Source: Sulfobacillus acidophilus (GTDB lineage Bacteria > Bacillota > Sulfobacillia > Sulfobacillales > Sulfobacillaceae). From it: 43,148 bases of DNA. The notes beneath the pieces are model-generated. The model saw nothing but the letters and a program-made list of their open reading frames with translations. It did no database searches and was not told where the DNA came from. Numbering within the stretch: the stretch's first letter is position 1; each line of letters starts with the position of its first letter. Location of the stretch: the NCBI GenBank assembly GCA_003023745.1, contig PXYV01000044.1:1-43148 (forward strand). Reading direction: 5' to 3'. Shown here one piece after another: positions 5,523 to 9,540 of this stretch. The position numbers and the translations under genes were made by a program.

Positions 5523-5948
5523 GTGGACATTGTTGCAGATCTCCTAATTGGGATCGTTAGCGGGCCGGTAACCGGTTTTTCGGGGGTGAGTGCCGTCGTG
5601 GGACCCTGCCTTCATCTTGGTGCTTCACGTACCTGTCGCACCGCCGTTGGCGCCAGTCTGGCCGTCGACGTCGTGAGGTCAATCACGGTGGCGTGGAGTC
5701 AGTCCCGGCAGCATCATTTGGCGCTCAAACTCGGAGTACTCCGCATGCTGGGTGCCATGACGGGCGCACGAACCGACATCGTTTTATCGCATCACGTGCC
5801 TATTGCGTGGGTAGCCGTGGCGGTTGGCCTTTCGATGCTGATCCATGGATTCGGGCGCGGGGAAGGATCGAGACGGGGACAACATGGGTTAATGAGTCTT
5901 CGGCGATTGGGCGGATACTGTATATATGGCATTATGAAATCCCGTTAG
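5523..5948 (+). pseudogene. TauE/SafE-type sulfite/organosulfur exporter, half length
   Basis: The 141 residues resemble only the N-terminal four-helix repeat of the TauE/SafE (COG0730) family. LLIGIVSGPVTGFSGVSAVV stands for the usual LLIGLVSGLLGVGGGFLMVP, VGASLAVDVV for GTSLAVIV, and GAMTGARTDIVLSHHVP for GALLGARLGARLSHRLP. Full members have ~250 residues and two repeats; here the second repeat is missing and the tail is hydrophilic. No good ribosome site precedes the GTG. These proteins export sulfite or related anions. It sits between the broken OsmC gene and the MFS gene. A working single-repeat protein cannot be excluded, but a truncated relic is more likely. Confidence 0.5.
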
Positions 5949-5989
5949 GATACCCTAGGCCACCACCACGGATTAAGGAGTGATTGCGC

Positions 5990-7252
5990 ATGGTCCGACA
6001 TGATAGAGAGAAAGGGCAGGAAACGGGAGACCGATTGTCCGCATCCCGGTGGACGGCTCTGTTGTGGATCACCTTTGCCGAATTGTTGGCGATGAGTGTA
6101 TGGTTTAGCGCCTCGGCCGTCACGGGAGCCTTAACCCGACAATGGCATCTGTCCGGCATCGCCGTGACCTGGCTCACAGCGTCCGTCCAGTTGGGATTTG
6201 TGGGCGGGGCCTTAATCAGCGCCACACTGGGACTGGCGGACCGTTTTCGCCCTCGGACGCTGATGGGATGGGGTGCGTTGGGGGCCGCCTCTGCGACGGC
6301 GGCCCTACCCCTTTTCCCCCATGGTGGGTGGGGGCCTTTTGTTTTACGTGCGCTGACGGGGGTGTTTCTCGCGGTTGTGTACCCCGTGGCGGTGCAATGG
6401 GTGGCGCGCTGGTTTCCCCACCAACGCGGCTTGGCGGTAGGAATACTGATTGGTGGATTGACGATAGGGTCTGCCCTGCCGCATCTGTTGGCCGGCATGC
6501 CGTTCTTGCAACATTGGCAGGGGGCATTAGCGGGCAGTGCGGCCTTAGCCGTGATCTCATGGGGGGTGGTATTGTGGGTGGTTCCGGAACATCCGGGTCC
6601 CTTTCATCCGCCCGCCTTTCAGTGGGATCGGGTGGGGGCGGTGCTGCGCGACCAACCCGTCATGTGGGCTAATCTGGGATACTGGGGCCATATGTGGGAA
6701 CTGTACGCCATGTGGACCTGGTTGCCGGCTTTTTTTGTGGCTAGTTGGGCATCCCGGTGGACCGGTACGGCGCTCGTCAGCGTGACCGGGGGTGTGAGTT
6801 TTGCCGCTATTGGACTGGCGGGACTCGCCGGCGCGCTGGCGGGTGGATGGGCTGCGGATCGGTGGGGCCGGACGCGGGCGACTATTGGCGCCATGGGCGT
6901 TAGTGGGACCATGGCGTTGCTTATCGGAGGGACGTTTCAGCGTGCGCCGTGGCTGACGATTCTCGTTGCCCTGGTGTGGGGATTCAGTGTGATTGCCGAT
7001 TCGGCGCAATTTTCGGCCGCCGTGACGGAACTGGCCCCCACGGCGTTGCAAGGCAGTGCACTGACCTTGCAAATGGCGGTCGGCTTTTTAATCACCATTG
7101 GCTCCATTGATCTGGTGGGATGGCTTGAGCCACGCATCGGATGGTCCCACGTGCTGATGGTGTTGGCGGTGGGGCCGGCCGTCGGAATTTGGGCGATGGC
7201 GCGTTTGCGGCATCGCCCGGAGTCCCTGCAACTCGCACACGGTCGACGTTGA
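5990..7252 (+). CDS. MFS transporter
   Basis: A 420-residue major facilitator protein. The ATG at 5990 is preferred over the upstream TTG because AAGGAG at 5975-5980 is nine bases away. About twelve hydrophobic segments are visible, with the loop between helices 2 and 3 as LADRFRPRTLMGWG and the equivalent between 8 and 9 as AADRWGRTRATIGAMG, the standard MFS signatures. The N-terminal ~20 residues are cytoplasmic and charged. The gene ends 90 bases before the flavoprotein gene and probably belongs to the same transcript. The substrate is unknown; the neighbourhood suggests a sulfur-, selenium- or thiol-related compound, which is only inference. Confidence 0.85.
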   Translation: MVRHDREKGQETGDRLSASRWTALLWITFAELLAMSVWFSASAVTGALTRQWHLSGIAVTWLTASVQLGFVGGALISATLGLADRFRPRTLMGWGALGAASATAALPLFPHGGWGPFVLRALTGVFLAVVYPVAVQWVARWFPHQRGLAVGILIGGLTIGSALPHLLAGMPFLQHWQGALAGSAALAVISWGVVLWVVPEHPGPFHPPAFQWDRVGAVLRDQPVMWANLGYWGHMWELYAMWTWLPAFFVASWASRWTGTALVSVTGGVSFAAIGLAGLAGALAGGWAADRWGRTRATIGAMGVSGTMALLIGGTFQRAPWLTILVALVWGFSVIADSAQFSAAVTELAPTALQGSALTLQMAVGFLITIGSIDLVGWLEPRIGWSHVLMVLAVGPAVGIWAMARLRHRPESLQLAHGRR

Positions 7253-7341
7253 TGGCTTGCGGCGTACTGCGCGCATTATCGTATTCTCATCGCTATTTCT
7301 CAAATTGTTCCTAAATTTATTTTCGCTTGAGGAGGGATTTT

Positions 7342-8688
7342 ATGTCCAAACGCATTGTGGTCATCGGAGGCGATGGGGCCGGGATGAGTGCGGCGTCCCA
7401 AGCAAAACGGCGTGACCCCTCGCTCGACATTATCGCTTTTGAAAAGGGTGCGATCGTGTCCTATTCGGCGTGAAGCGTTCCTTATTATGTCGGCAGGTTG
7501 GTCGACAATACAGAGGAACTGATTGCCCGCACACCCGAGGAGTTTCAAAACCGCTTAGGGATTGCGGTTCGAACTCATCATGAAGTGGTCCAGATCGATC
7601 TTTCTCGCCAGCGCGTGGCGGTGCAAGGGAGTGGTGGCACCATGTGGGAAAGTTACGACGAGCTTGTCATTGCGACGGGGTCCGTACCTATCGTGCCTGA
7701 ATGGCCGGGAGTCGATTCGCGTGGAATTTTTACGGTCAAAACTCTAGAGGATGGCCGCGCCATTCGGGACGACCTCGAGCAATATCAGCCCCGCCATGCC
7801 GTCGTCATTGGCGCAGGCTATATCGGATTGGAAATGGCTGAAAATCTTCGGCATTGGGGAATAGAGACCACCATTGTGGAGCAAAAGGGCCAGGTGATGC
7901 CGACCATGGATGCTGACATGGCGGAATTCGTCACCGAAGCGCTAGAAGGATTAGGGGTGCGGGTTCATCTTCAGGAAGAGGTGGTGGGCTTTGACGTGTA
8001 CCGAGGGAGGGTCCGAGCGGTTCAAACGCGGCACGGGTTGATACTCGCAGATCTGGTAATTTTGGGTCTGGGAGTTCGTCCGCAAACCACCTTGGCTCAA
8101 GAAGCCGGCATTCCTCTCGGCGTCAAGAACGCCATTAGAGTCAATCCGTACCTCATGACGGAGGTATCGCACGTATGGGCGGTCGGCGATGCGACACAAA
8201 CCCTTCATCAAGTGACCGGACTGCCCAGTTACGTCGCCCTGGCCACGATTGCCAATAAACAAGGTCGGATTGCCGGCATGAACCTTAGTGGTGCCTCGAT
8301 CGCCTTTCCGGGCGTGTTGGGGACGGCCATAACTCGGGTCGGCGCCACCGAGGTGGCGCGTACCGGACTCACGTTGGCCGAGGCTAAGGCGGCTGGGATT
8401 TCGGCTATAGAAAGCCAAATCCAAGCCGAAACGAAACTGGGATATTTTGACGATGTGTCACCGATGACCGTCAAGATAGTCGCCGAAGTTTCCAGCGGCC
8501 GGATTCTCGGAGGACAAATTGTGGGCGGTAGCGGTAGCGGAAAGCGGATTGATACCATTGCCACCGCCGTCACTGCCAAAATGACGGCGGCGCAACTTGT
8601 CGACCTCGATCTTGCCTACGCACCACCATTTTCCGATGTCTGGGATCCGGTGCAAATCGCGGCAAGAACTCTGGTCTCCAAGATCTAG
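7342..8688 (+). CDS. CoA-disulfide-reductase/NADH-oxidase-type flavoprotein with UGA at the redox cysteine (candidate selenoprotein)
   Basis: Read through one TGA (7471-7473), the frame encodes 448 residues, the usual length of CoA-disulfide reductase/NADH oxidase proteins. GGAGGG lies seven bases before the ATG. Residues 5-17 form the FAD-binding turn (VVIGGDGAGMSA), 111-113 are ATG, 154-162 the NAD-binding VVIGAGYIG, ~278-283 VWAVGDA, and near the C-terminus LDLAYAPPFSDVWDPV holds the tyrosine motif of CoA-disulfide reductases. The TGA is codon 44, in SYSA-UGA-SVPYYVG, exactly where relatives have SYAAC-G-IPYYVG, the catalytic cysteine. Everything after the TGA is intact, and a SECIS-like hairpin follows at once. 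I infer selenocysteine; the alternative is a recent nonsense mutation of TGC/TGT. The enzyme would reduce a disulfide, polysulfide or oxygen using NAD(P)H. Confidence 0.85.
7474..7520 (+). promoter_or_regulatory. SECIS-like hairpin of the flavoprotein gene
   Basis: Directly after the UGA, GTTCC (7477-7481) pairs with GGAAC (7515-7519), extended by U-A and U-G pairs. After a 2x2 internal loop UAU pairs with AUA, and GUCGGC (7489-7494) pairs with GUCGAC's matching side (7501-7506), closing a six-base loop AGGUUG (7495-7500). The loop starts 21 bases after the UGA. Known bacterial SECIS elements have a short apical loop with a G in its first two positions, 16-37 bases from the UGA; the E. coli fdhF loop is AGGUCU. 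The pairings are seen directly; the function is inferred. Confidence 0.65.
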
Positions 8689-8754
8689 ACCCGGAACCGT
8701 GACCTGACCATTTGGAAAAAAACCGCTTTTTGAGCGAGAAAGAAGGAGATATCA

Positions 8755-9540
8755 ATGGATAAAACACCCCAGCTTCCCATTACCCCGATGGCACTGGATC
8801 TGTGGTATGAGGGACCTGGTTTCGTGGTCGCGGACAAACCCCAAGGTATGGCGGTGCATCCCGATCGAGCCGACGGTGAGGGTACCTTGGTCAACGGATT
8901 GTTGCAATCGAACCGTTGGCTCGCAGAAATGGAAACCAGCCATGCTCCCGGTGTGATTCACCGACTCATGGCACAAGACCGGGGGTTAGTTTTAGTCGCC
9001 AAGTCCGAGGACATGGCCGAGGCGCTACGCGGACTTTACCGTGAGCAAGCCATTACGTTTTCCTATCGCGTTCGCATAGCTAAAGACGTAAGGCCTGTGG
9101 CAACGGAACTGGTGACCGTCTTTGGTCATCAAGTCTATGACGATGTCTCGGTGTGGGATATTGACAGCCCGCTCGGCGATACCGAGCAATTGCGGAGCGA
9201 GTGGTTGGGTGAGGTCAGCCGTGACGCGTATTTCGTAGCATACCGGATGGACATTCCGGCGCCGCGCACGCACATTCAGGTGGGATTGGGCGAACGGATC
9301 GGGCTTCCTGCCATAGACCTCTACACCGTTCCGACGTGAAGCGTATGCAATGGGACGAAGGCGGTGCTTTCGTCAAATGGTTTTGCCTACCGTGACCACA
9401 CACTGGACGATGAGATGACTATCGCGGAAATGAGACGGCTACGCGGGCACGAGCGAGGAATTCCTGTGATTCTGATTAACGGCGTAGTCTCCGTGGGATT
9501 TGATCGACATCGATTAAAACACTCTCTGGGACTGTTTTAA
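8755..9540 (+). CDS. RluA-like domain fused to a glutaredoxin domain with a UGA-x-x-Cys motif (candidate selenoprotein)
   Basis: Read through the TGA at 9337-9339, the frame encodes 261 residues. AGAAGGAGA precedes the ATG. Residues ~15-185 resemble RluA-family pseudouridine synthases: VVADKPQGMAVHP at 24-36, EGTLVNGLL, and GVIHRLMAQDRGLVLVAKSEDM at the catalytic motif. The family motif HRLDxxTSG has its essential Asp replaced by Met72, so this domain is probably not a working synthase. Residues 187-261 are a glutaredoxin: IDLYTVPT, then UGA(195)-SVC(198), a helix, the cis-proline loop GIPVILINGVV (Pro237) and GFD. The UGA stands at the first cysteine of CxxC. A SECIS-like hairpin follows. 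The gene starts 66 bases after the flavoprotein gene. Taken without readthrough, the product would be a 194-residue protein ending just before the active site. Confidence 0.85.
9340..9390 (+). promoter_or_regulatory. SECIS-like hairpin of the glutaredoxin fusion gene
   Basis: GACGAAGGC (9354-9362) pairs with GCTTTCGTC (9366-9374), nine base pairs with one G-U, closing a three-base loop GGU (9363-9365). The loop starts 23 bases after the UGA at 9337-9339, inside the 16-37 base range of bacterial SECIS elements, and begins with G. A weaker outer pairing, GCAA (9347-9350) with TTGC (9383-9386), is possible. Structure is seen; function is inferred from position and the glutaredoxin motif. Confidence 0.65.

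Follow-up and report, generated by a model that had tools for sequence, protein, structure and literature searches.

A predicted selenoprotein family in Sulfobacillus joins a pseudouridine-synthase-like domain to a U-x-x-C glutaredoxin

The window analyzed here, a stretch of 43,148 nucleotides from Sulfobacillus acidophilus (GCA_003023745.1, contig PXYV01000044.1), carries on its forward strand a predicted selenoprotein gene (8755..9540) whose 261-residue product fuses a pseudouridine-synthase-like domain to a glutaredoxin with a U-x-x-C active site, where U is selenocysteine (Sec). The gene lies on the same strand as, and 66 bases downstream of, a gene for a flavin adenine dinucleotide (FAD)-dependent oxidoreductase which has a UGA of its own. 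Between the ATG at 8755, preceded by what reads as a Shine-Dalgarno-like AAGGAGA (8743..8749), and the TAA at 9538–9540 there is a single in-frame TGA, codon 195 (9337..9339), which opens the UxxC motif and is predicted to stand for Sec.

With this TGA read as U the translation runs on through YTVPT-U-SVC, RGIPVILINGVV and GFD to give the 261 residues. The glutaredoxin domain occupies residues 186–261 (9310..9537), of which 189–244 match Pfam Glutaredoxin [PF00462; 7e-8, 33 bits against a cut-off of 22.9], a model matched by all 46 members of the family alignment (E 0.01). Residue 195 (taking U as C), C198, I236 and P237 are invariant in these 46 sequences, that is, both the C/U-x-x-C motif and the cis-Pro loop are present. 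The original prediction, made from the sequence before any database search, was therefore right that the frame continues past 9339 into a glutaredoxin and that the UGA takes the first CxxC position after YTVPT. One point can be refined: the first strand of the domain (residues 187–191) lies ahead of the UGA, so that the codon splits the domain. The Sec-glutaredoxin would presumably be a thiol/selenol redox enzyme.

A search of 151 genomes gave 26 full-length matches, the window gene included, all of which were used; one broken copy in genome G007 was excluded. Read from the DNA, the codon in question is UGA in 20/26 genes of this Sulfobacillus group and TGC in 6/26. Two Bacillaceae, Terrihalobacillus insolitus (37% identical) and Bacillus pinisoli (34%), have UGA at the same codon, and with them the aligned position reads UGA in 22/28 and TGC in 6/28. 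The six TGC genes comprise one paralogue from the window gene's own genome (C35:50097–50876, L016:6098–6880; 54% identical to it) and the genes of G008, G012, G014, G020 and G027. Among the relatives in the GTDB collection the named ones are Sulfobacillus benefaciens, S. harzensis and S. thermotolerans, while the metagenome-assembled genomes are mostly titled Bacillota bacterium. Sequencing error was rejected as an explanation, the same UGA being present in many assemblies, including those of the isolates S. harzensis DSM 109850, Terrihalobacillus insolitus and Bacillus pinisoli. The distribution bears out the view of the original prediction that random mutation is a poor explanation, and the alignment of homologues that it called for has Cys or UGA at this site. 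Two outcomes that it named as refuting, no conserved sequence beyond the UGA and no selenocysteine machinery, did not materialize: in six of seven hand-picked close pairs the ratio of nonsynonymous to synonymous substitution rates (dN/dS) 3' of the UGA is 0.02–0.17, indicative of purifying selection, the seventh pair being saturated, and selA, selB, selC and selD are all present.

A hairpin of the selenocysteine insertion sequence (SECIS) type follows the UGA at 9354..9374. It starts 14 nt 3' of the codon and consists of a 9-bp stem (9354–9362 / 9366–9374) and a GGU loop (9363–9365), 23 nt past the UGA. According to the accessible part of PMC13188914, the bacterial SECIS model wants the loop to lie 16–37 nt from the UGA with a G within its first two positions, and the minimum free energy to be at most -7.5; as coded here it requires at least 4 uninterrupted pairs and allows the bases of the called loop to pair on, so that printed loops are often of 9 nt around a true 3-nt loop. 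Such a hairpin was found in 18/22 UGA genes, the window gene having one of -12.7, in 0/6 Cys genes and in 4.5% of synonymous-codon versions of the same proteins. When folding energies are compared with a null of synonymous codons, z averages -2.47 over 20 UGA genes and -0.25 over the six Cys genes, and 82.8% of the alignment cells pair in the hairpin among the 22 UGA genes versus 59.3% among the Cys genes. In the 22 UGA genes two-sided changes occur at four stem pairs, a number reached by 21/500 shuffles, and the covariation score exceeded all 500 shuffles; another measure, which takes in further pair types, fell below the shuffles. The hairpins of L069 and L071, shifted by one base, were scored as broken in that alignment. 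Against dinucleotide shuffles the two window genes give z values of -2.04 and -3.50, and L069 gives -1.66.

Several observations tell against the hairpin as a recoding signal. Four of the 22 UGA genes, at -6.5 to -7.0 kcal/mol, miss the -7.5 limit; B. pinisoli satisfies the model with a different hairpin from the conserved one; and the folds of L071, L108 and L109 are no stabler than dinucleotide shuffles (z near zero or positive). The hairpin is by itself unspecific, equally stable ones being present at other TGAs of the window.

The source assembly (3.68 Mb, 128 contigs, completeness 89.58) encodes SelA [537.5 bits], a SelB above cut-off in a 629-residue frame, a SelD with its own in-frame UGA, and a tRNA-Sec above cut-off whose anticodon reads TCA (UCA). 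In searches of 42 genomes, the 17 with a UGA fusion have selA above cut-off in 16/17 cases and a UGA-containing selD in 17/17. Two points count against this support: the tRNA-Sec (selC) gene of the source genome is cut by a contig end, and G023 has UGA genes with no selA match. Furthermore, Sec genes fail to separate UGA from Cys genomes, since selA is above cut-off in the Cys-form G008, G012, G014 and G020, as it is in S. thermotolerans; in G012, also of the Cys form, no selD above cut-off was found. Selenoproteins are familiar from this genus: every Sulfobacillus genome of one study has Sec formate dehydrogenases (PMC4378227), and S. thermotolerans has an up-regulated Sec peroxiredoxin (PMC7409299), as given in the accessible parts of these papers. 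Within L015:2645–9472 the selA gene sits between heme biosynthesis-type genes (hemA, hemC and hemB by eye) and electron-transfer flavoprotein-type genes. Stand-alone glutaredoxin-like frames of 83–85 residues with one in-frame TGA occur in related genomes at L119 (G032), L120 (G009) and L121 (G018), and are perhaps a second Sec glutaredoxin.

Because the Cys-homologue alignment, the conservation past the UGA, the SECIS-type hairpin and the full Sec gene set all agree, a UGA-encoded U-x-x-C glutaredoxin is the best fit, and we are highly confident in predicting that UGA 9337–9339 is a selenocysteine codon, which Sec-tRNA with SelB would decode at the hairpin. Were the UGA a true stop, the product would be a 194-residue pseudouridine-synthase-like protein followed by a decaying glutaredoxin remnant, and this is how gene callers annotate the family. 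As the original prediction anticipated, 30 of 62 matches among 5.8 billion database proteins end exactly one residue before the UGA, the nearest being 92% identical to the window gene (22 others are CxxC and 10 are of other kinds). Those truncated forms to which a source assigns a name are called 23S rRNA-/tRNA-specific pseudouridylate synthase or hypothetical protein; the B. pinisoli and Terrihalobacillus copies are stored as truncated pseudouridine synthase, and the Alkalihalobacillus deserti entry is a Cys form. A stop at this codon would sever the first glutaredoxin strand from the rest of the domain, and it does not account for purifying selection beyond the codon in six of seven pairs, for Cys without any stop in 6/28 full-length members, or for the same UGA in Bacillaceae of 34–37% identity. 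A true stop or pseudogene was rejected on the homologues and on dN/dS past the UGA, and we regard it as extremely improbable. Equally hard to credit is that a suppressor tRNA puts Cys, or some residue other than Sec, at the UGA. There are minor tRNAs that suppress stop codons with Cys, and the 6/28 family members with Cys at the site would suit one, but the genome has the full Sec gene set, and in the Cys genes the SECIS-type hairpin does not satisfy the model.

The N-terminal portion, about residues 10–180 (8782..9294), has the fold of an RluA/RluD-type pseudouridine synthase, as judged from its fold match to RluD/RluA, and matches Pfam PseudoU_synth_2 at residues 23–111 [1e-8, 36 bits against a cut-off of 26.8]. 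It scores 44.8 bits against the 192.7 required by NCBIfam TIGR00005 (RluA family). The Asp of the HRLD motif is catalytic in pseudouridine synthases. Codon 72 (8968..8970), which aligns to this Asp in RluD, encodes Met, and the site is R, A, M, E, H or another residue in 88/91 family sequences; the Asp is kept in 3/91, which speaks against a dead domain. HRLD was found in 0/91 family sequences, as was GRTHQIR, which is present in 7/7 RluA-type matches from the same search. The family has a motif of its own, NRWL[AS], in 90/91 sequences, with GRWLA in the remaining one. The domain is likely an inactive pseudouridine-synthase-like domain, one that would have stopped making pseudouridine and might now be a docking or binding scaffold.

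The upstream gene (7342..8688) specifies a putative FAD-dependent protein of 448 residues with U44, a pyridine nucleotide-disulfide oxidoreductase resembling coenzyme A (CoA)-disulfide reductase. Its ATG at 7342 is preceded by a sequence that reads as Shine-Dalgarno-like (AGGAGG, 7330..7335), and its sole TGA, codon 44 (7471..7473), falls at the catalytic Cys position (SYSA-U-SVPYY). A SECIS-type hairpin with a 7-bp stem and the loop AGGUUG, 21 nt past the UGA, follows at 7488..7507. U44 aligns to the Cys of the three PDB chains listed, one of them named CoA-disulfide reductase, in agreement with the original prediction that the adjacent gene also has UGA at its catalytic cysteine. The TIGR03385 (CoA-disulfide reductase) cut-off was missed, at 431.2 versus 578.8 bits, this being the top model among the 25 listed. 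Upstream of the pair lie a major facilitator superfamily (MFS) transporter (5984–7252) and, 5' of that, a short TauE/SafE-like sulfite exporter frame (5523–5948; 31.2 bits versus a Pfam cut-off of 32.6), perhaps a gene fragment. In G018 the UGA-containing FAD gene has downstream of it a large gene that by eye resembles formate dehydrogenase (L110:7125–10100).

Near homologues of the FAD gene were taken as those with E < 1e-120 plus two broken genes, a line set after the list was seen; the homologues of G042, G054 and G056, which have no TGA, fall just below it. The readable near homologues in 61 genomes have UGA in 11 cases and Cys in 3 (G008, G012, G020), and the broken copies are those of G007 (UGA) and G014 (Cys). 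At L078:334–2399 of G007 a broken FAD gene and fusion pair retains the FAD UGA; the protein P0051 may represent this pair, annotated as one. A near homologue occurs in 14/23 genomes with the fusion and in 2/38 without it (Fisher p 2.9e-6, kinship ignored), and the two genes are side by side in 8/29 loci. The Sec/Cys state is concordant in 14/14 genomes carrying both genes, a figure in which two genomes rest on broken FAD genes (G007, with the fusion state from its intact copy, and G014) and in which, for the window genome with its further Cys copy, the paired copy was the one counted.

We suggest, as a tentative working model to which we give somewhat less than an even chance, that the two proteins form an NAD(P)H-to-thiol relay. 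The FAD enzyme, whose gene likewise has UGA for the catalytic Cys, would pass electrons from NAD(P)H to a thiol of low molecular weight, for which CoA is the probable candidate. The reduced thiol would then serve the Sec-glutaredoxin in reducing disulfides or persulfides on protein clients. With respect to bacillithiol, no BshA above cut-off was found in the genome (90% complete), which makes CoA the likelier thiol. There are arguments against a relay: no near FAD homologue was found in 9/23 fusion genomes, nor any FAD partner in B. pinisoli; Terrihalobacillus has a 41% form without TGA; and the 14/14 concordance amounts to one independent contrast.

Other roles for the glutaredoxin can be envisaged. 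It might be the redox switch of an active pseudouridine synthase and so bring RNA modification under redox control, which the RluD/RluA fold match and the three sequences that keep the Asp would favor. An active synthase was rejected on the missed TIGR00005 cut-off, the absence of HRLD and GRTHQIR and the non-Asp site in 88/91 sequences, and with Met72 at that site in the window gene such a switch appears very unlikely. Somewhat less so, if still improbable, is that the Sec glutaredoxin is partnered not with the FAD enzyme but with the assembly of respiratory metalloproteins (cytochrome oxidase / heme A). In 9/29 loci a fusion copy that is not part of the FAD pair has cytochrome oxidase-type genes nearby, and a heme A synthase-like gene (by eye) is near the fusion in 5/29 (L062, L064, L067, L068, L070). 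The oxidase genes, however, are on the opposite strand, 1.2–1.9 kb away in eight loci and 5.7 kb in one, with none beside the window copy and none seen beside the two Bacillaceae copies. The Cys paralogue of the same genome adjoins cytochrome oxidase-type genes; UGA is the codon in the fusion copies that eight relatives carry next to genes of this type.

The history of the codon was followed on a tree of 78 sequences. These are the 26 genes, the two from Bacillaceae and, from the databases, 20 full-length and 30 truncated proteins; two of the 22 CxxC matches were left out. Nine Sec/Cys changes are needed on it, five of them forced by well-supported branches. Under a loss-only model there are 10 Sec-to-Cys events on the best tree and 8–11 across 200 bootstraps, and a Sec root was cheaper in 200/200 bootstraps. 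Sec, present also in the two Bacillaceae, thus looks ancestral, and was apparently replaced by Cys 8–11 times if never regained. Regain may have occurred in the lineage of the window gene, since this gene and its nearest UGA relatives are placed among Cys genes. Weighing against the direction of change is that the root state depends on the 30 truncated proteins being labelled UGA; 14/30 of these are, on the tree, near-copies of loci where the UGA was read. The accessible part of PMC13188914 describes bacterial Sec-to-Cys substitutions as rare and documented mainly for FdhA and SelD, and here many such apparent swaps fall in one family. The original prediction stands as regards the U-x-x-C glutaredoxin; it had missed the N-terminal domain, the SECIS hairpins, the Cys paralogue and this repeated exchange.

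Taken jointly, a fusion-borne UGA read as Sec in a glutaredoxin, an inactive scaffold domain and the FAD/CoA scheme as working model form a reading in which we have good confidence, though all of it is drawn from sequence comparison. A more far-reaching version seems doubtful to us: that a pseudouridine synthase fold stripped of its catalytic motifs became the permanent carrier of a Sec glutaredoxin, that Sec was original with 8 to 11 Cys swaps, mostly in lineages still making selenoproteins, and that the neighboring Sec CoA-disulfide reductase switches in step, both being one NAD(P)H-to-thiol relay. The family would add an architecture to the known selenoproteins and correct UGA members stored as truncated pseudouridine synthases or hypothetical proteins, and it suggests that an RNA-modification fold has been reused outside its usual chemistry. 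Closely related genomes, in one case even a single genome, offer matched Sec and Cys genes, so that the benefit of Sec is open to test.

In the accessible part of a 2026 review (PMC13188914) the fusion is not among the 119 prokaryotic selenoprotein families tabulated, and the word pseudouridine is absent from that review and from PMC9312934. A literature search, outside which most subscription papers lay, found no paper joining selenoprotein, pseudouridine synthase and glutaredoxin, and none on selenocysteine and glutaredoxin in Sulfobacillus; PMC5322559 and PMC6211008, as far as accessible, share some words with the topic and are unrelated in content. The glutaredoxin domain of the window gene shares with the Sec glutaredoxin of the review (UxxC, PF00462), as described in its accessible part, the U-x-x-C site and the Pfam Glutaredoxin match above cut-off. 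It differs in being fused, as the C-terminal third of the protein, to a pseudouridine-synthase-like domain. The upstream gene is of the same kind as the Sec FAD-dependent oxidoreductase (CoA-disulfide reductase, UGxP) listed there, with UGA at the catalytic Cys, and differs in having U-S-V-P and in being paired with the fusion gene.

The fusion protein falls under the cut-offs of all 16 NCBIfam models that it matched. Like the HUGP/GUXX-star fusion selenoprotein (NF045501) it is a fusion with a glutaredoxin-like selenoprotein domain, but it scores 25.4 bits against a cut-off of 325, with only the glutaredoxin-like end matched; the Uxx-star glutaredoxin-like selenoproteins (NF041212) are missed at 38.7 versus 66 bits. 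Unlike the RluA/RluD pseudouridine synthases, the fusion family lacks HRLD and GRTHQIR and has its own motif NRWL[AS]. Kim et al. in 2011 reportedly described a Sec glutaredoxin in tandem with a Sec MsrA. Our case is similar in that two selenoproteins are proposed to act in one redox chain, and different in that the partner would be an FAD-dependent, CoA-disulfide-reductase-like enzyme. Sec glutaredoxins and Sec CoA-disulfide reductases are already known; the fusion is likely a new predicted selenoprotein family.
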